From an uncultured Duodenibacillus sp. (GTDB lineage: Bacteria > Pseudomonadota > Gammaproteobacteria > Burkholderiales > Burkholderiaceae_F), in the NCBI GenBank assembly GCA_944390145.1, contig CALXOY010000006.1, positions 1-34,357 of the forward strand: 34,357 nucleotides of DNA. Reading direction: 5' to 3'. The notes beneath the pieces are model-generated. The model saw only the letters and a program-made list of their open reading frames with translations, made no database searches and was not told the DNA's origin. The translations under genes and the position numbers were made by a program. How positions within the stretch are numbered: the stretch's first letter is position 1; each line of letters opens with the position of its first letter. This document shows positions 18,901 to 32,346 of this stretch, in pieces.

Positions 18901-18916
18901 TACCTCTTTTGAGGTA
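18901..18916. promoter_or_regulatory. Inverted repeat TACCTC-TTTT-GAGGTA upstream of mccA
   Basis: Two perfect 6-base arms are separated by TTTT. It lies 37 centre-to-centre bases... more exactly 44 bases upstream of the FNR-type site centre. It could be an operator for a second regulator or a weak hairpin. No T-run follows in either direction. Confidence 0.4.
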
Positions 18917-18945
18917 TAAAAGGACGGCTGTTGGCCGCCATAAGT

Positions 18946-18959
18946 TTGATTTATATCAA
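18946..18959. promoter_or_regulatory. FNR/CRP-type (ANR) binding site upstream of mccA
   Basis: TTGAT-TTAT-ATCAA matches the FNR consensus TTGAT-N4-ATCAA at all ten defined positions. FNR-type regulators activate anaerobic respiration genes when oxygen is absent. The site is centred about 190 bases before the mccA start codon, so a transcript with a leader of roughly 150 bases is implied if it activates from about -41.5. Confidence 0.75.
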
Positions 18960-18983
18960 TCTCTTTTCTACGCCGAATGGCGG

Positions 18984-18997
18984 TTGAGTTTAGTCAA
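18984..18997. promoter_or_regulatory. Second, weaker FNR-like dyad upstream of mccA
   Basis: TTGAG-TTTA-GTCAA differs from the FNR consensus at two symmetric positions. Its centre is 38 bases downstream of the perfect site. It could be a second site or part of the core promoter. Confidence 0.3.
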
Positions 18998-19141
18998 TTC
19001 TGTCTAAGAATGGGATAAAACTCTAGGGTATCTGAAGACAGTCTTAAGCTAGTCTTTAGGTGCTCGCAAAGACGCTCTGCCTTTGCGGGACTTCTGTCGT
19101 CTCCCCCGACGGCGGAGGTAAGAAAAATTTAGGAGATTGAG

Positions 19142-21193
19142 ATGACAACAAAAATGATCAAAACGGCGGCTGCAACGCTGTTTTGTTCCGCTGCTTTGGT
19201 TGCGTCCGGTGTTCAGGCTGCTGCCACTCCCGGTCTCGGCAACAAGACCGTTAATGCGATCACTCAGAAGATTTGGGACAACCCGTCCACGACCGAAAAG
19301 GAAATGGGCGTGAAGACCCTGCAGGACTACATCGTCCAGGAAAAGGAGATGTGGGACTACCTCTTCAAGAACCACCCCGTCTTCAAGTATGCTGAAGAAG
19401 GCCGCATTAAGGGCGTCTACAAGATTTCGACCCGTGGTTCGGAATTCTTGACCGAAGGCAATGCCCAGACCTACTCGAAGCTTGCCGGCGGCCGTCCGAG
19501 CGCTTCCCAGTACCGTCTGGCTGCGAAGTCCGTGCTTGACTTCCCGAACCGCTTCGTCGGTCCGGAACGCTGCGGCGAATGCCACGCGATCCAGTATCAG
19601 AAGTGGAAGAGATCCCGTCATGCCCAGACGCTGCGCTTCCCGGGCGAACACCCTGAAGTCGGCAACGATCTGAAGAAGAAGCTTTATGGCTCCCAGGCTT
19701 CGATCCTTCCTGACGGCATCATGCCCGACGACATCTACGGCACGCTGGGCACGCCGCGTACGAAGTACGGCTTCATCGACAAGTGGCTGGTTCGTGGTTC
19801 CTACCACGTCCGTGACGGTCTGCTGAGCGACCTCTCCGGCACGATCGTTGCCGGCGGCAATCAGTTCTCCCGCGGCTGGGCCCAGTGGCTCACCCCCGAA
19901 AAGGCCAAGGAAATCCAGAAGGTGGTCCCCGACTTCCCGACTGAACTGAGCCAGTTCGGTCCGTCGGCTTCCCACCAGTGGGGCATGACCTCCTACGGTT
20001 CCACGTACGAACAGACGCTGCTCTTCCAGTCGGCCACGTCCTACTGCGAAGTCTGCCACGCCTTCAAGTTCGACTTTAAGACCAAGGATGAGTTCTTCAA
20101 GGCCCTCGGCAATCCGCAGGAACTGCGCAAGCACACCATCTCCCGCGGCATTTCCTGTGAAGAATGCCACGGTGCAGGCGGCCACCTCGTTGGCGCTGAA
20201 TCCAACGGCTTCCAGACGAACTGCGAACGCTGCCACCAGCGCTCCAACTTCGTTGAAAGCGACTACAAGCTTCCGTCCGCTCAGGGCAAGCTTGAAAAGG
20301 GCTTCAACATCAAGACGAAGTCTTCCTGCCCGTCCTGCGGCACCGAAGGCTCTCAGCTCATGATGACGAAGCACTATGAGAAGGGCATGCGCTGCGTGAC
20401 CTGCCACGATCCGCATGAAGTGACCAGCAACGATTGGAAGGACTACTACACCAAGCCCGCCATCCGTCAGACCTGCCAGGACTGCCACAAGACCCAGGCC
20501 GACGTCGTTGCCAACACCAACACCCACAAGAAGATGGACTGCGTGGACTGCCATATGCCGTTCACGATGAGCTGCGAAAACTTCACGGCCATCCAGCGTC
20601 CTGACATGGCCGGCTTCGACGCCGTCCGTCGTTCTCACCTCTTCAAGATCGAAGTCGATCCGGTCAAGAAGATGATGAACCCGGCCGAAGGCCAGTCTCG
20701 CGCCTCCAACTCCAAGGGCTGGCACGTTGCCCGTGACGAAGAAGGCCATGGCTACGTCGACCTGATGTGGTCCTGCGCCCGTACGGCCAACGCTGAAAAG
20801 GGTGTGATGGACAACAAGGGCTGCCACAGCCTCTTCCTCTCCACGCTCGAAAAGGGCCTGCAGTACGGTGATCAGAAGGTCATCTACGGTGAAGTCATGA
20901 AGTGGCAGAACCCGGTCAAGGACGGCTTCAAGGCTGCCAAGGCTGCTCAGGAACGCATCAACAAGCTTCTCGAAGTCACGAAGCTTCCTGTTGAAGCCAA
21001 GACCGAAATCATGCTGCTCGTCGACAAGGCTGCCGACATCACCAAGCAGGTTGAAGAAGACGGTTCCTGGGGTGTTCACGCTCCCGATTACCTCAAGCAG
21101 CGCGTTGATACGGCCAATGCCTATCTGACGCAGGCTCAGAAGATCCTTGATAACGGCAACTTCCCGCTCATCAAGACTGAAGCCAAGAAGTAA
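19142..21193 (+). CDS. mccA: Octaheme cytochrome c sulfite reductase MccA (SirA-like)
   Basis: MccA reduces sulfite to sulfide with six electrons in the periplasm. The 683-residue protein has a signal peptide cleaved near VQAAA. Seven CXXCH motifs lie at C144, C302, C339, C361, C418, C445 and C467 (first cysteines). The eighth is the rare CX15CH form, C545 with C561-H562, which is diagnostic of MccA. Non-heme cysteines include C396 and C399 in CPSCG and C478 in MSCENF. In the Wolinella enzyme two cysteines hold a copper ion at the active-site heme, and one of the CPSCG pair plus C478 are likely equivalents (inference). Codon choice (GAA, AAG, many CGT) is more biased than in neighbours, as for an abundant protein. 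A strong AGGAG precedes ATG. A stable hairpin follows the stop. Confidence 0.95.
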
Positions 21194-21227
21194 TCCAAGC
21201 GACTCTTAAACCTTGATCTCCTATTCT

Positions 21228-21259
21228 CCGGCCGGGAGGGCGATCCCCCTCCCGGTCGG
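21228..21259 (+). other. Strong GC-rich hairpin between mccA and the rhodanese gene
   Basis: A 13-bp stem (21228-21240 with 21247-21259, one G-T pair) has a 6-base loop and no T-run after it. It lies 35 bases beyond the mccA stop. Such structures commonly protect the 3' end of an upstream message and lower expression of downstream genes in the same operon. Confidence 0.6.
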
Positions 21260-21292
21260 GAATCAGCGAAGAAGGTTTCATCGGAACACGAA

Positions 21293-21718
21293 ATGAAAAA
21301 GCAACTGCAGAAACTTGCGTTCTGTGCGCTTCTGGCGCTTCCGGCCGTCACGTTGGCCGGCGGAAACGCCCCTCTGGAAGCGGCCGAGGAGTACGTCTAC
21401 AAAGTCAGACAGGTCTCCATTCAGGAAGCCGAACAGCTCTTCATGGAGCCCGGCGTGCGCATCTTTGATGTGAATACGCTTGAGCTCTGGGCCGAAGGCT
21501 ATATTCCGGGCGCCGTGTTTTTCAACGTCGGCAACTGGAAAAAGCTCCTTCCGAAGGACAAGAACACACTGATCGTGTTTTACTGCGCCAACCGTCTCTG
21601 CAGCTCCAGCCAGATCGCAGCTTATGAAACCATGAAGCTCGGCTACACGAATGTGTGGCAGATGCCCGACGGCATCTACGGTTGGAAGCTCTCCGGACGA
21701 CCGGTTGAACTTCCCTAG
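21293..21718 (+). CDS. Periplasmic rhodanese-like sulfurtransferase
   Basis: A single-domain rhodanese of 141 residues with a signal peptide (MKKQLQKLAFCALLALPAV, cleavage near LAGG). The fold shows VRIFDVNTLELWAEGYIPGAVF (substrate loop after the CH2A motif) and the active-site loop FYCANRLCSSSQIAA. C98 is the expected persulfide-forming cysteine. A second cysteine, C103, lies in the same loop, as in some rhodaneses of sulfur-metabolising bacteria. Located between mccA and mccB, it may bind or relay sulfane sulfur, scavenge persulfide or polysulfide formed near MccA, or protect the enzyme. None of these is proven. The 99-base gap before it contains the hairpin at 21228-21259. Confidence 0.85.
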   Translation: MKKQLQKLAFCALLALPAVTLAGGNAPLEAAEEYVYKVRQVSIQEAEQLFMEPGVRIFDVNTLELWAEGYIPGAVFFNVGNWKKLLPKDKNTLIVFYCANRLCSSSQIAAYETMKLGYTNVWQMPDGIYGWKLSGRPVELP

Positions 21719-21812
21719 CCGGGAAGGCGGTGAACCCGCAGGCTTTTGCAGGGCGTCTCCCTCACAGGAAACGCAGCAGAGAAACTGTATTTAACTGAAG
21801 AAAGAAACCACA

Positions 21813-22580
21813 ATGCAATCCCTCAAGAAAATCGTGCTCGCGGCCTCCGTTCTGATGTGTGCCGGGACTGTTGCCTTCGCAGGCGAACTCGACACCCAGC
21901 AGGCCAAGGAAGCCTACAGCATGGGTGCATCTGTCGGAAACTACATCTCTGATCAGATCTACAAGCAGACCAAGCTCGGCCTGTCGGCCGACATGGCGCT
22001 CATCGAGAAGGGCTTTCAGGATGCCATCCGCGGCAAGAGCAAGATCTCTGAAGAAGATATGCTCAAGTACCTCAACAGCCGTGCCGAAAAGCTGAACAAG
22101 CTTGATGTGGCGGCCAAGGAGAAGCTTGCCAAGGAAAACAAGGCCAAGGCTGAAAAGTTCCTTGCTGAAAATGCCAAGAAGAAGGGCGTGACGGTCACCA
22201 AGAGCGGCCTGCAGTATGAAGTGCTCAGAAAGGGTTCCGGCGCGACGCCCCGCATTGAGGACGTGGTGACGGTCGGTTATACGGGAAAACTCATGGACGG
22301 GACGGTGTTTGAAAGCACCTATGCGGCCAAGCAGCCCGCCCGCTTCGTGGTGATGAGCATTATTCCGGGTCTTGAAGAAGGCCTCAAGCTGATGAAGGAA
22401 GGTGCGCAGTTCCGTTTCACGATTCCTGCGAACCTTGCCTACGGCGAATTCGGCGCCGGACAGATCCCCCCGGAATCTCCGCTGATCTTTGAACTGGAAC
22501 TGATCAAGGTCGAAAAAGTCGGAGCCCACCAAGGCATGGGCAAAACCGTGATCAACGGCATGCCCAACCCGCACAAGTGA
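21813..22580 (+). CDS. mccB: FKBP-type peptidyl-prolyl cis-trans isomerase (MccB-like)
   Basis: A periplasmic FkpA/Mip-like isomerase of 255 residues. The signal peptide ends near AFAGE (residue 23). An all-helical dimerisation domain (about 25-120) ends in a Lys/Glu/Ala-rich helix (KEKLAKENKAKAEKFLAEN). The FKBP domain (about 125-237) shows VTVGYTGKLMDGTVFEST, MSIIPGLEEGLKLMKEGA, FTIPANLAYGEFGAG and SPLIFELELIKVE. In Wolinella the second gene of the mccABCD operon also encodes a peptidyl-prolyl isomerase, which supports the name. It likely helps fold MccA before or during heme attachment. It lies between the rhodanese and the TPR gene, all on the same strand. Confidence 0.88.
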   Translation: MQSLKKIVLAASVLMCAGTVAFAGELDTQQAKEAYSMGASVGNYISDQIYKQTKLGLSADMALIEKGFQDAIRGKSKISEEDMLKYLNSRAEKLNKLDVAAKEKLAKENKAKAEKFLAENAKKKGVTVTKSGLQYEVLRKGSGATPRIEDVVTVGYTGKLMDGTVFESTYAAKQPARFVVMSIIPGLEEGLKLMKEGAQFRFTIPANLAYGEFGAGQIPPESPLIFELELIKVEKVGAHQGMGKTVINGMPNPHK

Positions 22581-22651
22581 TTGTGAGGGCGATGACGATT
22601 TGACTTTCTGAGCAAAGAAAAACAGCTCTTTAACAAAGTGAAGGCATTTTC

Positions 22652-23296
22652 GTGAACGGTCTGGACGTTTTGATTGCATCGGCCGCTGCGCTCTTTGTCG
22701 TTGTACTCGGAGTGTATGCATGGCGCAATGCGAAACGCTCAATGCCGCTCATGGCAGGTTTTGCAGCACTTGTACTCGCTTCAAGCGTTGCCGTTTACGC
22801 CGGCTTCGGCAGGTACGCCGACTGGCAGAACGTGCAAACGGGGGTTGAAACGAACTACATGCTTGCCGCCAAGATTGCCGAAGCGCGCCGCATGGTCAAA
22901 AACATGCCCAGGAGCGCGCAGGCGCAGTCGAACCTTGCCGAGGCTCTTTATGAAGCCGGCCAGTACGGGGAGGCCGTTGAGGTTTTCAACGAACTTCTCA
23001 AGGTGGGCGGCGAAAGGGCCGAGACGCTCGGCAGACTCGCGCGCGCGATGTACTATCGCGACGCCCGCGTCATGACTGCTGAAACCCGCCGCGTGATCGA
23101 GCGCGCTTTGTCGATCAATGCGCTGGACGTGCAGACGCGCATGCTCCTTGGAGAGGACGCGTTCATGCACAAGCGCTATGACGAAGCCGTCAGCCACTGG
23201 AAGATGCTGCTTGATGCGGGGGTAGCACCCGCGCAGCAAAGAGCGCTCAGAAATGCCATCGCCAATGCCGAGTCCAGGGCTCGGTTGCAAGACTAA
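22652..23296 (+). CDS. CcmI/NrfG-like TPR protein of a heme lyase complex
   Basis: A 214-residue protein beginning at GTG. Two N-terminal membrane segments (about residues 4-24 and 32-52) are joined by a short basic loop (RNAKRS), then comes a periplasmic domain with TPR helices such as AQSNLAEALYEAGQYGEAVEVF and VQTRMLLGEDAFMHKRYDEAVSHW. This is the build of CcmI/CycH and NrfG proteins, which hold apocytochromes for heme lyase. Its partners CcmF and CcmH are encoded 6 kb downstream in the same direction (29219-31584). It therefore probably belongs to a lyase dedicated to MccA. It lies between mccB and mccC, so the lyase genes are split within the cluster. Confidence 0.8.
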   Translation: MNGLDVLIASAAALFVVVLGVYAWRNAKRSMPLMAGFAALVLASSVAVYAGFGRYADWQNVQTGVETNYMLAAKIAEARRMVKNMPRSAQAQSNLAEALYEAGQYGEAVEVFNELLKVGGERAETLGRLARAMYYRDARVMTAETRRVIERALSINALDVQTRMLLGEDAFMHKRYDEAVSHWKMLLDAGVAPAQQRALRNAIANAESRARLQD

Positions 23297-23349
23297 TCGG
23301 CAGGAGCGGTTTGCCTCGTGCACAACCGGTTCTGTCTGTGGAGAATATT

Positions 23350-24036
23350 GTGAGCGAAAAGATTGACAGGAGAAAGTTCCTCGCAGGTGCCGGTGCCGGC
23401 TCGCTGCTCCTGTCGCCTCTGGCCGGGGCGGCAGCTGCCAGCAACGCCGATGGCGGCAAGCGGCCGCAATATGTGATGGTCTTTGACCAGAACAAGTGCG
23501 TCGGCTGCACGGACTGCAGAATCGCCTGCAACGAGACCAACAAGTTGCCGAAAGGCCGCTCGCGTCTGTTAATGGAACTGCAGGGCAGCAAGCTCAAAAC
23601 CGATCGCGGCTATGAGCCCAACCGCCGCTACATCCGCGTTTCTTGCCAGCAGTGCAAGAACGCTCCCTGCGTGAGAGTGTGCCCGACCGGCGCCGCCCAT
23701 CGCGATCCCAAGACGGGCATCGTGACGATGGACACCACCAAGTGCGTCGGCTGCAAATACTGCATCGTGGCATGTCCCTACAACGTGCGCTTCATCAATG
23801 AAGAGACCAAGGTTGCTGACAATTGCGACTTCTGCCTGCATACGCGTCTCGAGAAGAACGAGATGCCGGCTTGCGTGGAAAGCTGCAAGTACGATGCGCT
23901 GATTTTCGGCGACATCAGCGACCCGAAGTCGTATGTAAACAAGCTGCTCGCCGTGAAGGATTCCGTGCGCATCCGTCCGGAACTCGGCACTGAGCCGCAG
24001 CTTCGCTACATCCCCATTGTGAAGAAAGGAGTGTAA
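23350..24036 (+). CDS. mccC: MccC: Tat-exported iron-sulfur electron transfer protein
   Basis: A 228-residue NrfC/PsrB-type protein that carries electrons from MccD to MccA. The N-terminus has a Tat signal (DRRKFLAGAGAG, twin arginines at residues 7-8). Sixteen cysteines form four [4Fe-4S] sites: CVGCTDCRIAC (50-60), CQQCKNAPCVRVC (99-111), CVGCKYCIVAC (132-142) and CDFC with CVESC (159-179). I chose GTG at 23350, which has GGAG six bases upstream and gives a standard Tat N-region. A TTG at 23311 with AGGAG is a possible alternative. The stop is two bases before the mccD start, so the two are translated together. Confidence 0.93.
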   Translation: MSEKIDRRKFLAGAGAGSLLLSPLAGAAAASNADGGKRPQYVMVFDQNKCVGCTDCRIACNETNKLPKGRSRLLMELQGSKLKTDRGYEPNRRYIRVSCQQCKNAPCVRVCPTGAAHRDPKTGIVTMDTTKCVGCKYCIVACPYNVRFINEETKVADNCDFCLHTRLEKNEMPACVESCKYDALIFGDISDPKSYVNKLLAVKDSVRIRPELGTEPQLRYIPIVKKGV

Positions 24037-24038
24037 AG

Positions 24039-24959
24039 ATGGACATCACCATGAACTTTACACTTGGTCTGACGCAGGGCATCAGCTGGCCGTGGCCGAT
24101 CGCCGTGTACCTGTTCCTTGCAGGTATTTCGGGCGGCGCAGTGGCTGTTGCCATCATGCTCAACCTGTATAAGAAGCAGACTGCGCAGAACACGCCGATT
24201 CTGAAGGCCGCGTCGCTGATCGGCGCCGTGACCATCATTCTCGGCATGGTCTGCCTGGTTGCTGATCTGACCAATCCGCTGTGGTTCTGGCGGATCCTGG
24301 TGTACTACAACCTCAGCTCGGTGATGAGCCTCGGCGTGATTGCGCTGCTGTTCTACATCCCCCTGGTGTGCATCCTGACGCTGGTTGCCATGCGCGACAG
24401 CTTCAAGATCGGGTTCCTTGACGGCCTTATCGGCTGGTTTGACAGCCACCGCTGCGGCCTTCAGTGGATCACCCTCGTGTTCGCGCTGACGATCTGCGCC
24501 TACACGGGCTTCCTGATCAGTGCACTGATCCGCTTCCCGCTGATCAACCAGGCCGTGCTGCCGGCCCTCTTTGTGGCTTCCGGTCTTTCGGCCGGCACTG
24601 CCGCCGCCAAGATGGTTGCCGCCGGCATGTTCGGTGAAGACATGCACAGCGCCGACCAGAAGGTGCTGCACGGCGCCGAGTGGCCGATCATGGCCGCTGA
24701 AGCGCTCTGCATCTTCATGATCGCCGTGGCGCTCTTTACCGGCAACGCCGCCGCTCAGGTCGCCGCCCAGGCATTCTGCACGGGCACCTGGGCCACCCTC
24801 TTCTGGGTCGGCGTGGTCGGCATCGGCTTCATCGTTCCGATCCTGCTGTGCAAGGCCAAGGGCTCTGGTGCCTTCTACCTGGCCGGCCTTTGCAGCGTCG
24901 TCGGCATGATGTGCCTGCGCCTGTTCATCCTCTACGCCGGTCAGACCTACGGTCTCTGA
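24039..24959 (+). CDS. mccD: MccD: NrfD/PsrC-like quinol dehydrogenase membrane subunit
   Basis: An integral membrane protein of 306 residues with about eight hydrophobic segments. The N-terminus ISWPWPIAVYLFLAGISGGAVAVAI is the typical start of the NrfD family, followed by ADLTNPLWFWRIL, ending with LRLFILYAGQTYGL. NrfD-type subunits oxidise menaquinol (or ubiquinol) and hand electrons to the partner iron-sulfur protein, here MccC. An AAGGAG inside the end of mccC serves as ribosome binding site. Downstream, a 225-base gap with two hairpins separates this gene from the nosL pair. Confidence 0.92.
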   Translation: MDITMNFTLGLTQGISWPWPIAVYLFLAGISGGAVAVAIMLNLYKKQTAQNTPILKAASLIGAVTIILGMVCLVADLTNPLWFWRILVYYNLSSVMSLGVIALLFYIPLVCILTLVAMRDSFKIGFLDGLIGWFDSHRCGLQWITLVFALTICAYTGFLISALIRFPLINQAVLPALFVASGLSAGTAAAKMVAAGMFGEDMHSADQKVLHGAEWPIMAAEALCIFMIAVALFTGNAAAQVAAQAFCTGTWATLFWVGVVGIGFIVPILLCKAKGSGAFYLAGLCSVVGMMCLRLFILYAGQTYGL

Positions 24960-24996
24960 TCGGATGAGGATCCGGTAAGACATTGAGTCTTTCGTG

Positions 24997-25024
24997 ACTG
25001 CGGCAGGGATTTCCCTGCCGCAGT
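24997..25024 (+). terminator. Strong hairpin after mccD (possible terminator)
   Basis: ACTGCGGCAGGG (24997-25008) and CCCTGCCGCAGT (25013-25024) form a perfect 12-bp stem with a 4-base loop. The following bases TCGATTCGTCTTTA are only moderately T-rich, so partial termination is more likely than full. Confidence 0.55.
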
Positions 25025-25047
25025 TCGATTCGTCTTTACCAAAATTG

Positions 25048-25062
25048 ACGTGCCCGGCACGT
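25048..25062. promoter_or_regulatory. Palindrome ACGTGCC-C-GGCACGT upstream of nosL
   Basis: Two perfect 7-base arms around a central C. It lies about 120 bases before the first nosL gene and directly beside TTGACG (25045-25050), a possible -35 box. It could be an operator. The regulator is unknown. Confidence 0.35.
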
Positions 25063-25104
25063 AAGATTTCAAGAAAAAGAGGACGCTGGTACAAGGTCCC
25101 GGTC

Positions 25105-25132
25105 AAAAAAAAAGCCGCCGGCTGTTGGCGGC
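25105..25132 (-). terminator. Minus-strand intrinsic terminator in the mccD-nosL gap
   Basis: GCCGCC (25114-25119) and GGCGGC (25127-25132) form a stem. On the minus strand it is followed by nine T (A9 at 25105-25113). No minus-strand gene ends here, so it could stop antisense or sRNA transcription, or it may simply act as a hairpin in the plus-strand leader of nosL. Confidence 0.45.
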
Positions 25133-25184
25133 TGATTTGTCAAAAAAGGGGTGATTCCCCCGCCTGAAACACAAGGAGTCTCAT

Positions 25185-25661
25185 ATGATCGTCAAGACCT
25201 TTGTCTGCGCCGCCTCGGCTGCCGTTCTTGCCTTTGCGGGCGCTGCCGCCGCCTCCGTTATCTCCGACACCGACCAGTGCGCCTCCTGCGCGATGGTGAT
25301 CAAGAAGTATCCTGGCCCCAAGGGGCTGATTGTTCTTAAGGACAAAACCGTTCAAAAGTTCTGCTCGGCCCGCGGCACGGCCTGCGGCTACGCTGAAGCC
25401 ATGAAGAAGACGGGCGTGGTGCATGTCTTCATGCATGACGCGGGTGCGGTGGACTGGAAGAATCCCGACGACTCCAAATTGATTGACGCCACCAAGGCCT
25501 GGTTTGTCTACGGCTCCAAGGTGAAGGCCGTGATGGGCCCGTCGCTTGCTCCCTTTGCCACGCGCGAAGCCGCGGAGGCCTTTCAAAAGAAAAACGGCGG
25601 CAAACTGATGCGCTTTGAAGAGCTCACGCCCGAAGCGCTTGGCTGCGGGGCGAAGTACTGA
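25185..25661 (+). CDS. NosL-type copper chaperone 1 (soluble, periplasmic)
   Basis: A 158-residue periplasmic NosL-family protein. The signal peptide (MIVKTFVCAASAAVLAFAG) ends near AAAS without a lipobox, so it is probably not a lipoprotein, unlike classical NosL. The copper-binding motif is CASCAMVIKKYPGPKG (C32, C35, M37). Conserved later parts are KFCSARGT and DATKAWFVYGS, with a C-terminal segment near AAEAFQKKNGGKLMRFEEL. NosL proteins bind Cu(I) for insertion into periplasmic enzymes. Here the likely client is the copper of MccA, not nitrous oxide reductase, because no nosZ is seen. AAGGAG lies before ATG. The stop overlaps the ATG of the second nosL by one base. Confidence 0.88.
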   Translation: MIVKTFVCAASAAVLAFAGAAAASVISDTDQCASCAMVIKKYPGPKGLIVLKDKTVQKFCSARGTACGYAEAMKKTGVVHVFMHDAGAVDWKNPDDSKLIDATKAWFVYGSKVKAVMGPSLAPFATREAAEAFQKKNGGKLMRFEELTPEALGCGAKY

Positions 25662-26149
25662 TGAAAATCCGTGCGTTTGTTTTGGCGGCGGCGCTCGCTG
25701 CCGCTCTTTGCGGCTGCTCTGAGGAAACCGCCAAGACCGTTTCCGCCGTCCCCTTTGAGGCGCACGACCGCTGCAAGATGTGCGGCATGGTGATTGCGCA
25801 CTACCCCGGCCCCAAGGCGGAGGTTTTCATCAAGGGCGTTGAAGATGAAGCCGTGAAGTTCTGCTCGGGGCGCGATGCGTTCACCTTTGCGCTGCAGCCG
25901 GAAAATGCACGGCGCCTGGTGGGCTTTTTCATTCACGACATGGGAAAGACATCGTGGGAAAAGCCCGATGACGCTGCTTTGATCGACGCCACGAAGGCTA
26001 TTTACGTCTATGGGCACAACATCGACGGCGTCATGGGCAATGAACCCGCCGCCTTTTCCGACAAAGAGAAGGCCGAGGCCTTCGTCAAGGACCACGGCGG
26101 CAGGATTTACGCCTACAAGGACGTGACGCTGGAGCTCCTTGACAAGTAA
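25661..26149 (+). CDS. NosL-type copper chaperone 2 (lipoprotein)
   Basis: A 162-residue paralogue of the preceding gene. The N-terminus MKIRAFVLAAALAAALCGCSEE is a lipoprotein signal with LCGC as the lipobox (lipidated C19). The Cu(I) motif is CKMCGMVIAHYPGPKAE (C38, C41, M43). Later features are KFCSGRDAFTFA, DATKAIYVYGHNIDGVMGNEPAAF and AEAFVKDHGGRIYAY. It is thus the classical membrane-anchored NosL form. In Wolinella a NosL-like lipoprotein is encoded in the mcc cluster, as far as I recall. The one-base overlap with nosL-1 (TGATG) shows translational coupling. nosD begins about ten bases after its stop. Confidence 0.9.
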   Translation: MKIRAFVLAAALAAALCGCSEETAKTVSAVPFEAHDRCKMCGMVIAHYPGPKAEVFIKGVEDEAVKFCSGRDAFTFALQPENARRLVGFFIHDMGKTSWEKPDDAALIDATKAIYVYGHNIDGVMGNEPAAFSDKEKAEAFVKDHGGRIYAYKDVTLELLDK

Positions 26150-26158
26150 GCGGCGCGC

Positions 26159-27451
26159 GTGATGTTCAGAAAGCTCTTTTCCATTTCGCTTGCCGCAGGT
26201 CTTGCGTTTGCCGCGGCCGCCGCCCACGCGGCCGTCTGGCGCGTGACGCCTGCTGACGACGTTGCCGAGATCGTGGGCAACGCCGAGGAGGGCGACACGA
26301 TCATCTTTGCCGCCGGCGTTTACAAGATGAACCTGCTTCTCACCGAGCCGCTCACCATCAAGGGCGAAGACGGCGCGGTGATTGATGCGCAGGGAAAAGG
26401 CACCGGCATCACGATCCGCCGCTCGCGCACCTCCATTGACAATCTGACGGTGCAAAACTACGGCCGCGATCTCTACAAGCGCGACAGCGGCGTGCGCGTG
26501 ATGGACGGCTGCACGGGGGTGCGGCTCACCAACCTCAAGCTCTCGGGCCCGGGCTTTGGCATCCGCGCAGATCGTCTGGACGATCTGGAAATCCGCAACT
26601 GCGAGATCACGGGCGTGGCGCGCCGTCACATACTCGACCGCGGCGACGGCGTGTTTTTGAACTATGTGAAGCGCTCGAAGCTCATCAACAACCGCGTGCG
26701 CGACGTGCGCGACGGCTTTTACTTTGAAAACACCGACGCCACCGTCTCCTCGGGCAACTTCTTTGACAACACCCAGTACGGCATCCACTGGATGTACACG
26801 CGCAACGACGTCGGCCACGACAATGTGACCGTCAACTCCGTGGGCGGCTTTGCGCTCATGAGCAGCAAGCACATCGACTGCCATGACAACACGGCGCGCG
26901 ACAACGTGGAGTTCGGCATTCTTTTGAACGTCTGCGAAGGCTGCACCGTGCAGGGCAATTTGGTCGAAGGCGTGCACAACCCCAAGGGGCGTGCGGCGCT
27001 GGACACCGAGGGCAAGGGGCTTTTCATTTACGGGCCGGGTGCTAGCCGCGTGCTCAACAACGCCTTTACGGGGGCTGACATCGGCATCGGCGTGGCCCTC
27101 GGGGGCGAAAAGACCGTTGTGGCGGGCAACGTGTTTGACAAGAACGCGATCCAGGTGCGCTACGTGGGCAAGGCGCCGCTTGAGTGGAGCGAAAACGGGC
27201 GCGGCAACTACTGGAGCACCTTCATGAGCTGGGACGCCGACAACGACGGCATCGCCGATACGCCCTACCAGCCCAACGACAGTCTGGACCGTATTTTTTG
27301 GATTTATCCGGAAGCGAGGTTTTTGATGCAAAGTCCGGTCACGGCGCTGTTGCGCTGGTTTGCGGCGCGTCTTGAAATCGACCGCGGCAAGGGCGTTACC
27401 GACAGCCATCCGCTCATGAGCGCCCCTCAGATCAAGGGGGCAGCGCAATGA
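26159..27451 (+). CDS. nosD: NosD-like periplasmic right-handed beta-helix protein
   Basis: A 430-residue periplasmic protein with a signal peptide (MFRKLFSISLAAGLAFAAAAAHA). The body is made of repeating parallel beta-helix rungs with Asn/Asp ladders, for example GVRVMDGCTGVRLTNLKLSG, YFENTDATVSSGNFFDN and LLNVCEGCTVQGNLVEG. The C-terminal part holds GRGNYWSTFMSWDADNDGIAD and PYQPNDSLDRIFW, typical of NosD (CASH domain family). NosD works with the NosFY ABC transporter to supply or prepare copper-site maturation. GTG (26159) or the adjacent ATG (26162) may be the start. The stop overlaps the ATG of nosF by four bases. Confidence 0.93.
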   Translation: MMFRKLFSISLAAGLAFAAAAAHAAVWRVTPADDVAEIVGNAEEGDTIIFAAGVYKMNLLLTEPLTIKGEDGAVIDAQGKGTGITIRRSRTSIDNLTVQNYGRDLYKRDSGVRVMDGCTGVRLTNLKLSGPGFGIRADRLDDLEIRNCEITGVARRHILDRGDGVFLNYVKRSKLINNRVRDVRDGFYFENTDATVSSGNFFDNTQYGIHWMYTRNDVGHDNVTVNSVGGFALMSSKHIDCHDNTARDNVEFGILLNVCEGCTVQGNLVEGVHNPKGRAALDTEGKGLFIYGPGASRVLNNAFTGADIGIGVALGGEKTVVAGNVFDKNAIQVRYVGKAPLEWSENGRGNYWSTFMSWDADNDGIADTPYQPNDSLDRIFWIYPEARFLMQSPVTALLRWFAARLEIDRGKGVTDSHPLMSAPQIKGAAQ

Positions 27452-28338
27452 GCGAACAAACCATTTGTGTGGAGGGCGTGAGCTTTTTGCGCGGAAAGCG
27501 CAAGGTTCTCGACGCGGTGAGCTGCACACTGAAAGCGGGCACCCTCACGGCGCTGATCGGCCACAACGGCGCGGGAAAGTCCACGCTCATCAAAACCATT
27601 CTGGGGCTCATCAAGCCTGTGGAGGGGCGCGTCACGGTGCTCGGAAAAGCGCCCGGCAGCGACCCCCTGAGCATCGGGTATCTGCCGGAAAACATCAGCT
27701 TTTACGAGCAGATGACCATGCAGGCGCATCTCGCGTACTTCGCCGCGCTCAAGGGCGTGCCGCAGACGCGCGTCGACGAGCTTTTGGAAGCCTTGGGTCT
27801 CGCGCACGTGCGCGGCAACCGCATGAACCAGTGCTCCAAGGGGCAGCGCCAGCGGTTGGGCCTGGCGCAGGCGCTTTTAGCCGAACCGCGCATCATGATT
27901 CTGGACGAACCCACGGTGGGGCTTGATCCGCAGGCATCCTCCTGGATGTACGCGCAGCTTGCCAAACTCAAGAGCCAGGGCTGCACCGTGATCGTCTGCA
28001 CGCATGAGCTGAGCCTGATCGAGCCCTTTGCCGACTTTGTGCTGATGCTCTCGGGCGGGCGCCTGCGGGCCAGCGGCTCGGTGGCCGAGCTGCGGCACAA
28101 GGCCAACCTTCCGGCCGTCATCACGGGCTTTGACGTCGAGGCCCTCCGCCGCACCGACGCCGCAAAGCATCTTGAGGGCGACGCGCTGCGCGTGCCCGAC
28201 AAGGACGTTCCCGCGGTGGTGCGCATTCTCACTGAACAAATGAAGGACTTTGACTTTGACGTCCGCCGCGCGGGCTTGACCGACATCTTCCGGGCCTACT
28301 GCGTGCTGCAGGGGCAAAAAGAGGAGGGCGCGGCATGA
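27448..28338 (+). CDS. nosF: NosF: ABC transporter ATP-binding protein
   Basis: A 296-residue ATPase. Walker A GHNGAGKST (38-46), Q-loop region GYLPENISFYEQMT (77-90), signature CSKGQRQRLGLAQAL (129-143), Walker B IMILDEPTVGLDP (149-161) and the H-loop in VCTHELSLIEPF are all intact. In the signature the usual LSGGQ is SKGQR, as is common in NosF and Ccm-type exporters. A C-terminal domain of about 80 residues follows. It powers NosY, and with NosD it forms the copper-site maturation unit NosDFY. ATG overlaps the nosD stop, and its own stop overlaps the nosY start, so nosD-F-Y are translationally coupled. Confidence 0.95.
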   Translation: MSEQTICVEGVSFLRGKRKVLDAVSCTLKAGTLTALIGHNGAGKSTLIKTILGLIKPVEGRVTVLGKAPGSDPLSIGYLPENISFYEQMTMQAHLAYFAALKGVPQTRVDELLEALGLAHVRGNRMNQCSKGQRQRLGLAQALLAEPRIMILDEPTVGLDPQASSWMYAQLAKLKSQGCTVIVCTHELSLIEPFADFVLMLSGGRLRASGSVAELRHKANLPAVITGFDVEALRRTDAAKHLEGDALRVPDKDVPAVVRILTEQMKDFDFDVRRAGLTDIFRAYCVLQGQKEEGAA

Positions 28339-29132
28339 GAAACGTCTGGTTGGTGGCCCGCAAGGAACTGGCCGACTGCCTGCAAAGCCGCTGGCTGTTG
28401 TCCGGGGGGCTTCTCTTTGCCATTTTGTCGCTTGCCGTTTTCTACGGCACGGCCGCAATCGGCGGCAGCTTTGCCTTCCCGCCGCTGTCGGTGGTGATGA
28501 ATTCGCTTGTGAGCCTCACGGTCTTTTTGCTGCCGCTTCTGGCGATCCTGCTGTGCTACGACGCATTTGTGGGCGAACTCGAAGGCGGAATGCTCATCTT
28601 GATGCTCACCTATCCCGTGACCCGCACCGCATTTCTGCTGGGCAAGGCCGTGGGGCAGGGGGTGGCGATTTTGATCGTGCTTGCCGCGGGCTTTGCGGTG
28701 ATGCCGGTTGCCGCGGCCTTTTCGGCGGTGCCCTATCCGGTTGCAGACCTTATCAAAGCGCTTGCCGTGACGGGCGTCTCGGCCTGGCTGCTGGGGATGG
28801 TCTTCATGTTTGCCTCCTACTGCGTGAGCCTTTTGGTGCGCACCAAGGCGCAGGCGCTTGCGATCCTCGTGCTGGTGTGGCTTGCGGCGGTGCTTCTCTA
28901 CGACCTGGGGCTTTTGGTGGCGGCGGTCTCCTTTACCGGGGGACTGCCGAGAGGCGTCTTGAACGCCCTGATGCTCGCCAATCCCGCCAGCGCCTTCAGG
29001 CTTTTAAACCAGGCGCTTTTCGGCTCCGTGCAAAGCACCGTGCCGCTGTCGGCCCTGGCGGGCGTGCTGGTGCTCTGGGCGGCGGCGCTTTTTGCCGCGG
29101 CGCGGGTGATTTTCGGGGCCAAGCGCTTCTAG
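28335..29132 (+). CDS. nosY: NosY: ABC transporter membrane subunit
   Basis: A 265-residue integral membrane protein with six predicted hydrophobic segments, from VARKELADCLQSRWLLSGG (cytosolic amphipathic start) through FAVMPVAAAFSAVPYP and LLGMVFMFASYCVSLLV to a last segment near LAGVLVLWAAALFAAARVIF. This is the ABC-2-type permease build of NosY. It pairs with NosF and NosD. An 86-base gap follows before ccmF, with no clear terminator, so the lyase genes are probably on the same transcript. Confidence 0.92.
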   Translation: MRNVWLVARKELADCLQSRWLLSGGLLFAILSLAVFYGTAAIGGSFAFPPLSVVMNSLVSLTVFLLPLLAILLCYDAFVGELEGGMLILMLTYPVTRTAFLLGKAVGQGVAILIVLAAGFAVMPVAAAFSAVPYPVADLIKALAVTGVSAWLLGMVFMFASYCVSLLVRTKAQALAILVLVWLAAVLLYDLGLLVAAVSFTGGLPRGVLNALMLANPASAFRLLNQALFGSVQSTVPLSALAGVLVLWAAALFAAARVIFGAKRF

Positions 29133-29218
29133 CTTCAGCAAGGATGAAGGTTGGCCGGCTAAAGTTGGCGGTTTGAGCGGGCTTTAGACCCGCGCGGGAA
29201 ATAAGGAAGCTCTCAAGC

Positions 29219-31114
29219 GTGATTGCAGAATTCGGACATTATTTGCTCTGTCTGGCGGCGGCCTGTGCGCTTTTCGGGTCGGCTGCGGTCCTGGCCGGAC
29301 TGCTGCGCGACAACAAGGCGCTTGCGGGCTTGTGGCGCGTCTGCACGCCCGTGTCGGCGCTGTGCCTTGCGGCGGCAAGCGCGGTGCTGCTCAACGCATT
29401 TCTGACCGACGACTTTTCGATTGCCTACGTCGCCGATCACTCCAACACCCGGCTTGAGACGATCTACAAGGTGGCCGCCTTCTGGGGCAGCCACGAGGGC
29501 TCGATGCTCCTGTGGATTCTTTTCATGGCGCTTGCGGCCTGCGCTGCGGCTCTCGCGCAGCGCAGAAACGAAGACTTCAATGCGCGCATCCAGTGCGTGA
29601 TGCTTGCGATCACGGGCGTCTTCACGAGCTTTGTGCTTGCCGTCTCCAACCCCTTTTTGCGCAACCTTCCGGCCGTGCCCTCCGAGGGGCGTGACCTGAA
29701 CCCCATCCTGCAGGACATCGGCATGATCCTGCACCCGCCGGTGATCTTTGCTGCGTACGCGGGGCTTGCGGTCATCTTTGCGATGGTGATTACGGTGCTG
29801 TGGGTTAAGCGCATGACCCCGCAGGCCTCCTCCTCCATTCAGCGCACCGCGGTCATCACGTGGACTTTTCTCACCGCCGGCAACGCGCTCGGCTCCTGGT
29901 GGGCCTACACGGAGCTCGGCTGGGGCGGCTGGTGGTTCTGGGATCCGGTCGAAAACGCCTCCTTCATCCCCTGGCTTGCAGTCGGGGCGATGCTGCATGC
30001 GCTCATTCTCTACGAGCGGCGCGGCCGCATGCTCAAGACCGTGGTGATGCTCGGCATCATCTCCTTTGCACTGTGTCTTCTCGGCACCTTCATTGTGCGC
30101 AGCGGCCTGATGCAGTCCGTGCACGCCTTTGCAACCGACCCCGAGCGCGGCGCCGTGCTGCTGGTGGCCTGCATGCTGGTGCTCATTCCCGGACTCGTTC
30201 TCTATACGCTGCGAATGGGCGCGGTGCAGGAGGCTGAAAGCCGCACGATTGCCGATCCGGACGCCTTTGACATGGCCCTGACGCTTGCGGTCTGCGTGCT
30301 CTGCACGGCCTTTGGCGCGGTGCTCGTGGGAACGCTCTATCCGGTCTTCTACGACATGGCGGGCCTGGGCACGCTCACGGTGGGCGCACCCTACTTCAAC
30401 AGCTTCTTTGCGCCGATGACGCTTTTTGCCGCCGTGGCGGCGGGCGCGGTGCAGATTCTTGCCGTGCGCTCCTTCAAAGTCGCTGCGGCCGTGAGCTTGG
30501 TCGTGGCGCTTGCCTGCGGCTCGATTGCGCTTTTCACCGACCCCAAGGAGCCGGTGATGACCTTTGCCGCGTTTGCCGCCTGCGGGTGGCTTGCCGTCAC
30601 GAGCATTGCACCCTATGTGATGGGCGCACCGCACCGCCCGGCCTTCGGCGCGGTGCTTGCGCACGCCGCCATTGCCGTGGCGGTGATCGGCGCGACCGGC
30701 ATTGCTCAGTATGAAGAGGAGGCGCTGGTGCGCATGGGGCCTGCTGCGGGCAAGCCCGTGGGAGACGTGATCTTCGTCTACCGCGACACCTACCGCGTCA
30801 ACACGCACGCCTACTTTGGCGACGCCGCGCACATCGAGGTGCTCAAGGCCTCCGACGAAAGCCACCTCACCGATCTTTTCCCGATGCGCCAGACCTTTGT
30901 GTCAAGCGGCATGCAGATGACCGCAGCGGGCATCGACCACGGTTTTTTGCGCGACCTCTACGTGTCGATGGGCAACAAGCTCTCGAACACCGAGTGGCTG
31001 GTGCGCCTCTCTGTGAAGCCCATGGCAAGCTGGCTGTGGCTTTCGGCCGCGCTGATGATGATCGCAGGCGTCATTCTGTGCCTGCGCCGCCGCCCCCGGG
31101 GAGGCCAATCATGA
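29219..31114 (+). CDS. ccmF: CcmF/NrfE-type cytochrome c heme lyase subunit
   Basis: A large membrane protein of 631 residues with about 14 hydrophobic segments. The heme-handling WWD domain is seen as ELGWGGWWFWDPVENASF (232-249). Histidines match the known CcmF ligands: H172 (LHPPV) and H302 (SVHAF) flank the WWD domain, H260 (MLHAL) matches one heme b ligand, and a further His lies in VLAHAAIAVAV. GSHEGSMLLW (90-99) is also conserved. CcmF attaches heme to apocytochromes. Here it is probably the dedicated lyase for the CX15CH site of MccA, as NrfE is for the CXXCK heme of NrfA. GTG at 29219 has AAGGAA upstream. The stop overlaps the next ATG (ATGA). Confidence 0.92.
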   Translation: MIAEFGHYLLCLAAACALFGSAAVLAGLLRDNKALAGLWRVCTPVSALCLAAASAVLLNAFLTDDFSIAYVADHSNTRLETIYKVAAFWGSHEGSMLLWILFMALAACAAALAQRRNEDFNARIQCVMLAITGVFTSFVLAVSNPFLRNLPAVPSEGRDLNPILQDIGMILHPPVIFAAYAGLAVIFAMVITVLWVKRMTPQASSSIQRTAVITWTFLTAGNALGSWWAYTELGWGGWWFWDPVENASFIPWLAVGAMLHALILYERRGRMLKTVVMLGIISFALCLLGTFIVRSGLMQSVHAFATDPERGAVLLVACMLVLIPGLVLYTLRMGAVQEAESRTIADPDAFDMALTLAVCVLCTAFGAVLVGTLYPVFYDMAGLGTLTVGAPYFNSFFAPMTLFAAVAAGAVQILAVRSFKVAAAVSLVVALACGSIALFTDPKEPVMTFAAFAACGWLAVTSIAPYVMGAPHRPAFGAVLAHAAIAVAVIGATGIAQYEEEALVRMGPAAGKPVGDVIFVYRDTYRVNTHAYFGDAAHIEVLKASDESHLTDLFPMRQTFVSSGMQMTAAGIDHGFLRDLYVSMGNKLSNTEWLVRLSVKPMASWLWLSAALMMIAGVILCLRRRPRGGQS

Positions 31115-31584
31115 CGAGTCTCAAGAAGCTTCTTTGCGTGCTTGCCTGTGCGGCGATCCTGCCGCTTGCGGGCTTCACCCCTTTTGCTGTCGGCAGCGCA
31201 AACGCGCAAAGCACAACGGCCGCACAGCCCTCGGTGCAGCCGGCGGGCAAGCCCCTGACCGGGCGCGAGCTCTACGATGAAGCGATCGCCGTTTCCAAGC
31301 TGCTGCGCGACCCGGGTGCGGCCAACAACACGCTCTTTGAGTCCGAGTCGGCCTTGTCGGGCGAACTCAAGGCGCTCATTTATCAACAGCTGCGGCAGGG
31401 CTACACGCGCGCGCAGATTCTCGACTTCATGGCCGAGCGCTATGGCGAAGCCGTGCGCTATCAGCCCGACTTCAACGCCTCCACGTTCCTTTTGTGGGCG
31501 GCGCCCTGGATTGCCGTGGTGATCGGTGCGGCGGTTTTCTGGCGCAGCACGCGGCGGCGCAAAAAGACGGCGTCCGGCGCATAA
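31111..31584 (+). CDS. CcmH/NrfF-like protein lacking the CXXC motif
   Basis: A 157-residue protein with a signal peptide (MTSLKKLLCVLACAAILPLAGF), a helical periplasmic domain and a C-terminal membrane anchor (about 126-146, FLLWAAPWIAVVIGAAVFW) ending in basic residues. The domain follows CcmH closely: GRELYDEAIAVSKLLR, then LFESESALSGELKALIYQQLRQGYTRAQILDFMAERYGEAVRY. Where CcmH has LRCxxCQN it reads LRDPGAANN, so both redox cysteines are gone and the mature protein has none at all. It may keep a structural role in the lyase while another protein (the thioredoxin behind it) handles thiols. Start at ATG 31111, four bases overlapping ccmF. A longer frame from 30994 is rejected. Confidence 0.82.
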   Translation: MTSLKKLLCVLACAAILPLAGFTPFAVGSANAQSTTAAQPSVQPAGKPLTGRELYDEAIAVSKLLRDPGAANNTLFESESALSGELKALIYQQLRQGYTRAQILDFMAERYGEAVRYQPDFNASTFLLWAAPWIAVVIGAAVFWRSTRRRKKTASGA

Positions 31585-31619
31585 CCCATTTTTGACAGTG
31601 TTTTTGTGAGGATTCTCAA

Positions 31620-32246
31620 GTGAAACGCCTTCTGCTTACCCTGGCTCTTGCCTTCAGCCTTTCCCTTTCGACTGTTGCAGCCGAGGCCCCTGTGACGGAT
31701 CACATTCCGGCCTTTCAGACGAAGATCGTTGAAAACGGCGACCCGGTTGCCGGCAAGCCCGGCCAGCTGCGCGACTTTTTGGAAATGCGCCACACCCGCG
31801 GCTTTTCCAAGGCGGTGCTGCCGGATCTGAACGGCAAGGAGGTGGCGCTTGACTCCTTTAAGGGCAAGCTGCTGTTGATCGACGTCTGGGCGAGCTGGTG
31901 CGAGCCCTGCATCCGCACGATGCCCGCCATGCACGAGTTGCAGCAGAAGTTCAACAAGGATCCCAAGAGCCGCGTGCACGTGCTCTCGGTGTCGGTCGAC
32001 GACAACGTGAAGAACGTGCAGAAGTTCATCAAGAAGTACGGTCTGGGCGATGACTTTGAAACGTTGGTCGACACCAAGCAGGTGATCGGCGACGATGTGC
32101 CGCTTGACGTGGTGCCGAGCTTTTTCATGCTCGACGGCCAGGGCAATCTGATTGGCTTTGTGCGCGGCTATGTGGATTGGACGGGCCCGGAAGTGGCCGC
32201 CTACCTCAATAAGCTCGCCGACAAGTACGCCGCCCGCGACTACTAA
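31620..32246 (+). CDS. Periplasmic TlpA/CcmG-like thioredoxin
   Basis: A 208-residue exported thioredoxin. The signal peptide is MKRLLLTLALAFSLSLSTVAA. The redox site is WASWCEPC (C94, C97), followed by IRTMPAMHELQQKF and a cis-proline in VVPSFFMLDGQG. An N-terminal extension of about 50 residues precedes the fold (IPAFQTKIVENGDP). CcmG/DsbE proteins reduce the heme-site cysteines of apocytochromes before heme attachment. The neighbour CcmH-like protein lacks cysteines, so this protein may act directly on MccA. GTG start with GAGGA seven bases upstream. It is the last gene before an intrinsic terminator. Confidence 0.88.
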   Translation: MKRLLLTLALAFSLSLSTVAAEAPVTDHIPAFQTKIVENGDPVAGKPGQLRDFLEMRHTRGFSKAVLPDLNGKEVALDSFKGKLLLIDVWASWCEPCIRTMPAMHELQQKFNKDPKSRVHVLSVSVDDNVKNVQKFIKKYGLGDDFETLVDTKQVIGDDVPLDVVPSFFMLDGQGNLIGFVRGYVDWTGPEVAAYLNKLADKYAARDY

Positions 32247-32270
32247 TCCGCTTTAAAGCGTTTGCTTGAA

Positions 32271-32310
32271 GCCGCAGCATCGTCCTCTGACCGGACGGCT
32301 GCGGCTTTTT
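32271..32310 (+). terminator. Intrinsic terminator ending the mcc-nos-ccm cluster
   Basis: GCCGCAGC (32271-32278) and GCTGCGGC (32298-32305) form a perfect 8-bp stem followed by T5 (32306-32310). It lies 24 bases after the stop of the thioredoxin gene and marks the end of the plus-strand cluster against the convergent AsmA-family gene. Confidence 0.8.
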
Positions 32311-32346
32311 GCTGGTGCGGACTGCTGTCCTTTTAAGAAGCGCGCC

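Follow-up and report, generated by a model that had tools for sequence, protein, structure and literature searches.

The DNA analysed here, referred to as the window, is a stretch of 34,357 nt from an uncultured Duodenibacillus sp. (GenBank assembly GCA_944390145.1, contig CALXOY010000006.1). It carries a cluster of 14 genes, all in frame on the + strand at positions 19142-32246, which starts with mccA, the gene for a predicted octaheme sulfite reductase, and continues through genes for sulfur handling, folding, electron input, copper supply and heme attachment (Table 1). Adjacent genes overlap at nosL1/nosL2, nosD/nosF, nosF/nosY and ccmF/ccmH. As an earlier sequence-only reading of this DNA had claimed, the 14 genes lie between an FNR-type box, here an exact match, and an intrinsic terminator, and the roles that it gave them were borne out by family and structure matches, strong for most of the genes, with solved homologues for MccA, NosL, NosD, NosY and CcmF. 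The terminator was seen by folding, its loop being too long for stem pattern scans.

Table 1. Features of the sulfite reductase cluster, with positions in the window
Feature	Position	Strand	Evidence and remarks
FNR-type box TTGATTTATATCAA	18946..18959	.	palindromic, exact match, 182 bp upstream of mccA
mccA/sirA, octaheme heme c-copper sulfite reductase, 683 aa	19142..21193	+	4rkm MccA, E=6.9e-212
Intercistronic hairpin directly 3' of mccA	21227..21260	+	14-pair stem, no U tract, z=-4.1
Rhodanese (SirB position)	21293..21718	+	PF00581, 48.7 bits
FKBP-type peptidyl-prolyl isomerase (SirI position)	21813..22580	+	PF00254 and PF01346; FkpA 1q6u, E=1.2e-42
TPR protein, SirG/NrfG-like apocytochrome chaperone	22652..23296	+	PRK10370 NrfG, 70.1 bits, under cut-off of 306
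mccC, Tat-exported 4x[4Fe-4S] subunit	23350..24036	+	PF13247; RRKFLAG signal and four Cys groups by eye
mccD, NrfD-type quinol oxidase subunit	24039..24959	+	PF03916, 210 bits
Hairpin in the 225-bp mccD-nosL1 gap	24996..25025	+	13-pair stem, z=-4.0
nosL1, copper chaperone	25185..25661	+	PF05573, 135.9 bits; NosL 7osf, E=2.6e-26; no lipobox by eye
nosL2, copper chaperone	25661..26149	+	PF05573, 151 bits; 7osf, E=1.7e-34; lipobox-like LCGC by eye
nosD, periplasmic beta-helix copper-transfer protein	26159..27451	+	TIGR04247, 350.8 bits, over cut-off; 7o0y NosD, E=1.9e-83
nosF, ABC ATPase	27448..28338	+	PF00005, 108 bits
nosY, ABC permease	28335..29132	+	7o0y NosY, E=1.3e-37
ccmF, SirE orthologue	29219..31114	+	PF16327 and PF01578; C-terminal domain 180 bits
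ccmH (SirF)	31111..31584	+	PF03918, 93 bits
TlpA-like thioredoxin (SirH)	31620..32246	+	PF00578, 56.7 bits
Intrinsic terminator	32268..32311	+	16 pairs, two stacked helices, then T run; fold z=-3.8

Residues 12-670 of the window MccA align to the solved Wolinella succinogenes enzyme (4rkm). The protein contains exactly seven CXXCH heme sites and one CX15CH site (C545-X15-CH, ending NKGCH), and its Cys399 and Cys478 align with Cys411 and Cys507 of the 4rkm chain, which are 96 residues apart, as are Cys399 and Cys495, the residues that we take to be the copper ligands of W. succinogenes MccA. With identical proteins counted once, we surveyed 87 different full-length MccA proteins. Both copper cysteines were kept in 87/87 (simple patterns missed them in eight rows, where re-reading found the cysteines with altered neighbours), exactly seven CXXCH sites were present in 86/87, L021 having six, and the special heme site was CX15CH in 73/87 and CX17CH in 14/87. 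The CX17CH form replaces CX15CH in Campylobacterota and Mucispirillum (L034, L040, L048, L053, L054 and others). At one Holophagaceae locus an in-frame TGA (L042:10865-10867) stands at the second cysteine of the third CXXCH, where eight relatives have TGC; selenocysteine, decay and sequencing error cannot be told apart. The window MccA, which is 60% identical to that of Shewanella sp. ANA-3, is probably a sulfite-to-sulfide reductase of the MccA/SirA type. In a class-wide sample of 369 genomes, MccA (E <= 1e-20) was found in the window's own genome only.

We compared the cluster with mccA loci from named genomes. The best 80 of 161 confirmed stretches represented 77 distinct loci, 75 of them with a full MccA; L032, which a contig end cuts, and L042, in which the open frame is broken, were left out. 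Sorted by the FKBP gene, the 75 comprised 41 sir-type and 34 mcc-type loci, counts that include many close relatives and are therefore not independent. The closest named loci are those of D. massiliensis (G008) and an uncultured Duodenibacillus (G009), in the window's genus group (g1). At the thresholds used, all 12 partner families were present in 24/41 sir-type loci; taken singly, the rhodanese was detected in 41, TPR in 40, NosL and NosD in 37 each, NosF in 36, NosY, CcmF and TlpA in 35 each, and MccC, MccD and CcmH in 34 each. Of the six sir-type loci without CcmF, one is truncated at the end of the locus and three are short of upstream sequence. The mcc-type loci had the rhodanese in 25/34 and every other partner under the thresholds, with a weaker NosL in L041 (63 bits) and likewise in the excluded L042 (Pfam NosL, 93 bits).

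The sequence-only reading had described the parts of the cluster as known only singly from other systems, a claim that this comparison overturned. The Shewanella sir locus holds the same 13 gene families together, and its CcmF falls in the same SirE clade as that of the window. The gene-order comparison which that reading had proposed, Sutterellaceae against Shewanella sir, gave an identical order from sirA to nosY, and the order mccA, rhodanese, isomerase, TPR, mccC, mccD, nosL, nosD, nosF, nosY is common to the window, Shewanella and Ferrimonas. The window differs in the placing of ccmF-ccmH-tlpA, which lie downstream on the same strand, in the doubled nosL, and in the FNR box; S. oneidensis relies on CRP and a ToxR-type SirR (PMC6976685, available part). 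Of the 40 loci scored for orientation, 32 have ccmF on the strand opposite mccA. The 8 that encode both genes on one strand all belong to the window's family; in L098, another member of this family, the two genes are opposite.

As far as can be read from an excerpted S. oneidensis gene table (PMC5955497), SO0476 to SO0479 are sirH, sirF, sirE and sirA, SO0480 is sirB (a sulfurtransferase), SO0481 sirI (an isomerase), SO0483 sirC, SO0484 sirD, SO0485 nosL and SO0488 nosY; nosD and nosF occupy the SO0486-0487 position in the other Shewanella loci compared. The accessible text of PMC6976685 gives sirG as SO_0482, names the operon sirAIGCDJKLM, and contains no mention of nos or copper; from gene order, our own reading is that sirJ-M are probably nosL, nosD, nosF and nosY. 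In the excerpt of a Shewanella genome paper, nosDFYL without nosZ is remarked on as a curiosity (PMC9415397). With a gene set and order so nearly identical in Shewanella, the system is already known and its combination of parts cannot be regarded as new: the window carries a gut Sutterellaceae version of the sir locus, rearranged and with two nosL genes. Titles and abstract openings of the literature on Duodenibacillus or Sutterella with sulfite or MccA revealed nothing apparent on this cluster, and one Duodenibacillus paper, in its accessible part, scores DsrAB and AsrABC, not MccA. Two variants were seen among the related loci: Ferrimonas loci L077 and L081 have two tandem copies of mccA-rhodanese-FKBP-TPR-mccC-mccD, and six Shewanella sir loci (L060, L061, L062, L080, L082, L091) have no mccC/mccD between TPR and nosL at the thresholds used.

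The mcc systems of Wolinella and Campylobacter share with the window the catalytic enzyme family and both copper cysteines. Unlike the window, L034 of Campylobacter encodes two fusions, ResB-CcsA and rhodanese-cytochrome, and no FKBP, TPR, NosD or CcmF at the thresholds used; the Wolinella cluster, known here only from the available part of PMC6976685, has CcsA1. No CcsA-type (System II) lyase was found in the window, where the sole Cytochrom_C_asm match is a CcmF. The contrast drawn in the sequence-only reading between a System I lyase here, now seen as CcmF and CcmH, and a CcsA type in mcc clusters is in agreement with these data. Near the mcc-type mccA of Sutterella wadsworthensis lie an FtsX-type ABC transporter, DUF4418 and a thioredoxin (L025:12692-15605), and near that of the Holophagaceae locus an FtsX-type ABC transporter and NosL (L042:12648-15352); such transporters are perhaps another copper route.

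The occurrence of the nos genes was followed in 67 genomes of the window's family, with sir-type MccA defined as at least 65% identical to the window MccA. By this measure 17 genomes had a full sir-type MccA, 8 an mcc-type, 1 a half only and 41 no match. NosL was present in 15/17 sir-type genomes and 0/50 others (Fisher p = 4e-13, shared ancestry ignored). In the 37 family genomes tested for NosD and nosZ, NosD occurred in 13/14 sir-type genomes, and the 23 others gave only weak matches, in G026 (36.6 bits, over the cut-off) and G035 (19.5 bits, under it). No nosZ (PF18764) was found in the window genome, a draft that is 88% complete, which agrees with the original claim that it is absent. The nosZ model matched 0/14 control genomes, and its positives were limited to two of the 37, G002 and G022. 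Each of these has a second NosD of its own on the nosZ contig, and these NosD split at 100/100 from the 12 sir NosD compared. In D. massiliensis, nosL1-nosL2-nosF-nosY (L100:7481-10204) are some 0.37 Mb distant from the mcc genes (L086) and nosD stayed; this genome has no nosZ match.

Compared with nosDFYL-nosZ clusters, the window has NosL, NosD and NosY that match the solved chains 7osf and 7o0y; it differs in having no nosZ match and a NosD apart from the two nosZ-linked NosD compared. We rejected an origin of the nos genes as remnants of a nosZ cluster, there being no nosZ match in the 88% complete genome and the nosZ-linked NosD forming a separate lineage. That the nos genes serve MccA, by predicted copper delivery, is well supported by these patterns. 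Several observations weigh against it. G029, a genome that is 99% complete, keeps a sir-type MccA with both copper cysteines and has no NosL or NosD, and the nos genes are thus not strictly needed everywhere; the 34 mcc-type loci are without the sir NosL/NosD/NosFY set at the thresholds used; and a literature search, mostly without subscription papers, turned up no published experiment on copper delivery to this enzyme. G013 also has a sir-type MccA without NosL, in a genome that is 80% complete. The MccA of G029 and the mcc-type enzymes could be accommodated if the nos genes served another copper enzyme or general copper uptake and stood beside mccA by chance or through co-regulation, and both NosL and NosDFY have a known part in the assembly of NosZ (PMC7558416, in the part available). 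We regard this alternative as quite improbable, however, given that NosL is missing from every family genome without sir-type MccA, that NosD is nearly confined to the sir-type genomes, that the two nosZ come with a separate NosD, and that D. massiliensis keeps its unlinked nos genes with no nosZ match. The suggestion that the nos genes were recruited for MccA thus stands in so far as NosL tracks sir-type MccA, but G029 argues against a general need. In four genomes (G002, G019, G456, G458) the second NosL is not beside the sir NosL but on a different contig or distant on the same one, and the doubled nosL is thus not always within the cluster.

We propose that the CcmF of the window is a dedicated heme lyase for the CX15CH site, a function suggested by its phylogeny. 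In a tree of 51 CcmF proteins, the window sequence, 13 other sir CcmFs of the family and 5 SirE of Shewanella and Ferrimonas formed a group separated by a 100/100 split from all the others, among them every housekeeping CcmF sampled; the CcmF that adjoins an mcc-like MccA in Ferrimonas marina lay outside this SirE group. The CcmF trees were built without G006, G007 and G009, and the second CcmF of Edwardsiella (562 aa, very long branch) was in the first tree and left out of the larger one. It counts against this reading that several SirE in the CcmF tree have long branches or an odd composition, for which the tree tool gives a warning. Contig 53 of the window genome encodes another CcmF, of the housekeeping kind, and a CcmC-like protein. 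We rejected a recent origin of the window CcmF by duplication of this housekeeping gene, the two being 37% identical and in separate clades.

A spare general lyase, or one for NrfA-type CXXCK sites, would also account for a local CcmF-CcmH-TPR set. The window CcmF scores under the cut-offs of both the NrfE and the CcmF models of NCBIfam, of which NrfE is the closest (588.7 bits), and the TPR protein is nearest to NrfG. Nevertheless, we give this explanation almost no credence: the genome already has the contig 53 genes, the window CcmF clusters with SirE, and in S. oneidensis deletion of sirEF abolished sulfite reduction and nitrite reduction was independent of the sir genes (PMC6976685, available part). 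The same excerpt reports that loss of sirG together with ccmI abolished sulfite reduction and that sirH deletion delayed it; others have thus demonstrated that sulfite reduction in that organism needs SirEF, needs either SirG or CcmI, and depends in part on SirH. In G034 and G452 the lyase genes are relocated and TPR travels with ccmF and ccmH, and in G029 the TPR gene adjoins ccmF. That TPR stays with the relocated genes fits a SirEFG complex.

A different second CcmF was found in mcc-type Sutterella and in the half-only genome G455 (loci L150, L168-L175 and L181-L184). It was duplicated within the housekeeping part of the tree (9/9 of those included) and not derived from SirE; in the five regions read, CcmH and a weak TPR match come after it, and in G461 its neighbours are a flavin oxidoreductase and a small cytochrome. 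It is possibly a separately recruited lyase for the unusual heme site, but all nine sequences come from one genus group.

The organisation of transcription was considered next to gene content. A scan of the window for FNR boxes with at most one mismatch gave 2 matches, where 0.42 are expected. Among 14 sir-type loci of the family (L004-L016 and the window), 4 had an exact box and 3 a box with a single mismatch, at 187-234 bp ahead of the open frame. In the other 7/14 the box is poor, with two or more mismatches, which counts against FNR control. Conserved stems were sought downstream of individual genes (at least 9 pairs, G-T allowed) and compared with 20 dinucleotide shuffles; stretches with identical first 60 bases were counted once, and the loci are partly close relatives. 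A stem 9-63 nt past the mccA stop was found in 38/48 sir-type loci (shuffles: mean 1.95, max 5) and a stem after mccD in 15/41 (mean 2.05, max 4). The corresponding counts were 4/45 after the rhodanese (mean 1.55, max 4), 6/46 after the FKBP gene (mean 3.5) and 7/41 after nosY (mean 1.8, max 5). The hairpin after mccA, which in the window sits in a 99-bp gap before the rhodanese gene, is conserved in position, not in sequence; the stems inspected differ and are without good U tracts.

Because neither window hairpin is followed by a good U tract, they resemble stabilisers, not terminators, and we infer that they stabilise the message and raise mccA over its maturation genes. With very stable hairpins in both gaps, the 14 genes may not yield a single equimolar transcript. 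We consider it an evenly balanced question whether the genes form one even operon or whether the messages of mccA, rhodanese-mccD and nosL1-tlpA are separate or differ in stability. The latter is favoured by the hairpins after mccA and mccD, the first of them kept in most loci, and by the long gap before nosL1; it is opposed by the want of a good U tract at either hairpin, by the finding of no second FNR box inside the cluster, and by that of no sigma-70-like site on the + strand from position 16000 to the window end.

Taken together, these results make it highly probable that the cluster as a whole is the Duodenibacillus sir (mcc) locus, a respiratory system with its own lyase and copper supply. 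In this scheme, FNR would turn the cluster on under oxygen limitation, and electrons from menaquinol would pass through MccD and the iron-sulfur protein MccC to the octaheme MccA, which would reduce sulfite to sulfide at a periplasmic heme-copper site. The seven CXXCH hemes would be loaded by the housekeeping Ccm system and the eighth, at CX15CH, attached by the cluster's own CcmF, CcmH and TPR proteins (SirE, SirF and SirG), with thiols held in the reduced state by the TlpA thioredoxin. NosL1 and NosL2 would bring Cu(I), which NosDFY would pass to MccA; the FKBP isomerase would assist folding, and the rhodanese may handle sulfane sulfur.

MccA might instead act mainly in sulfite detoxification or in making sulfide for biosynthesis. 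No siroheme sulfite/nitrite reductase (PF01077) was found in any of 11 family genomes (G000, G004, G006, G008, G009, G014, G019, G022, G029, G033, G034), and 11/14 control genomes were positive; MccA may therefore be the sole sulfite-to-sulfide route of these organisms. Such a primarily non-respiratory use nonetheless appears unlikely to us, as the menaquinol branch of MccC and MccD and the FNR box fit respiration and the larger part of the family (41/67) does without any MccA match.

A more surprising lead than the window cluster came from its relatives. In 10/67 family genomes we found 13 copies (one partial, in G460) of a half-MccA that matches approximately residues 402-675 of MccA; none was seen in the window's own draft genome. 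A match in G461 (C32) was excluded, as it meets a contig end and scores as a full MccA (482 bits). Ten half-MccA loci were read (L101-L108, L185 and L186, from G005, G013, G014, G022, G034, G455 and G458). They encode a four-heme protein, with three CXXCH sites together with CX15CH in nine and CX16CH in L185. The half-MccA lies in an operon that runs YdhY-like iron-sulfur protein, aldehyde ferredoxin oxidoreductase, YdhW-like protein, half-MccA, MccC and MccD; L108 ends ahead of MccC/MccD. The oxidoreductase family was confirmed at two loci and assigned at the remainder by length and order; its YdhV model score was 861 bits against a cut-off of 868, and the YdhY and YdhW models were also under their cut-offs. 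In a tree of the C-terminal region, eight half-MccA (100/100) and ten sir-type MccA of the family were split at 100/100 from 22 others; support is weak (80/51) for the fork joining them to Parasutterella-type MccA, and the tree has no root. Neither the 369-genome class sample nor a set of 24 genomes from elsewhere in the same order yielded a half-MccA; the latter set gave one weak match (G055, E = 4.6e-4). The available part of a 2026 survey attributes 'cytochrome-containing subunits' to oxidoreductases of this kind in a group with Parasutterella and Sutterella among its members, and does not name MccA (PMC13328260).

These observations suggest, tentatively and with a little less than an even chance in our estimate, that the CX15CH heme domain, its private lyase and the quinol branch form a portable module, reused as half-MccA with a YdhV-like tungsten/molybdenum oxidoreductase. 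On this view the C-terminal half of a sir-type MccA was detached from sulfite reduction and lost both the copper cysteines and the first half of the enzyme, which holds the catalytic heme. Half-MccA would then carry electrons between quinol and the oxidoreductase, its heme being loaded by the SirE lyase or, in Sutterella, by the second, independently duplicated CcmF. If it is loaded by the SirE of the sir locus, a lyase 'dedicated' to sulfite reductase would serve two respiratory systems.

By the present analysis, a complete MccA system with genes for its copper supply occurs in gut species of Duodenibacillus, Parasutterella and Turicimonas. The analysis also makes a comparative case that NosL-NosDFY, known from nitrous oxide reductase, serves a second copper enzyme. 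If the module proposal is true, an exotic heme site and its lyase would be reusable by another respiratory enzyme.

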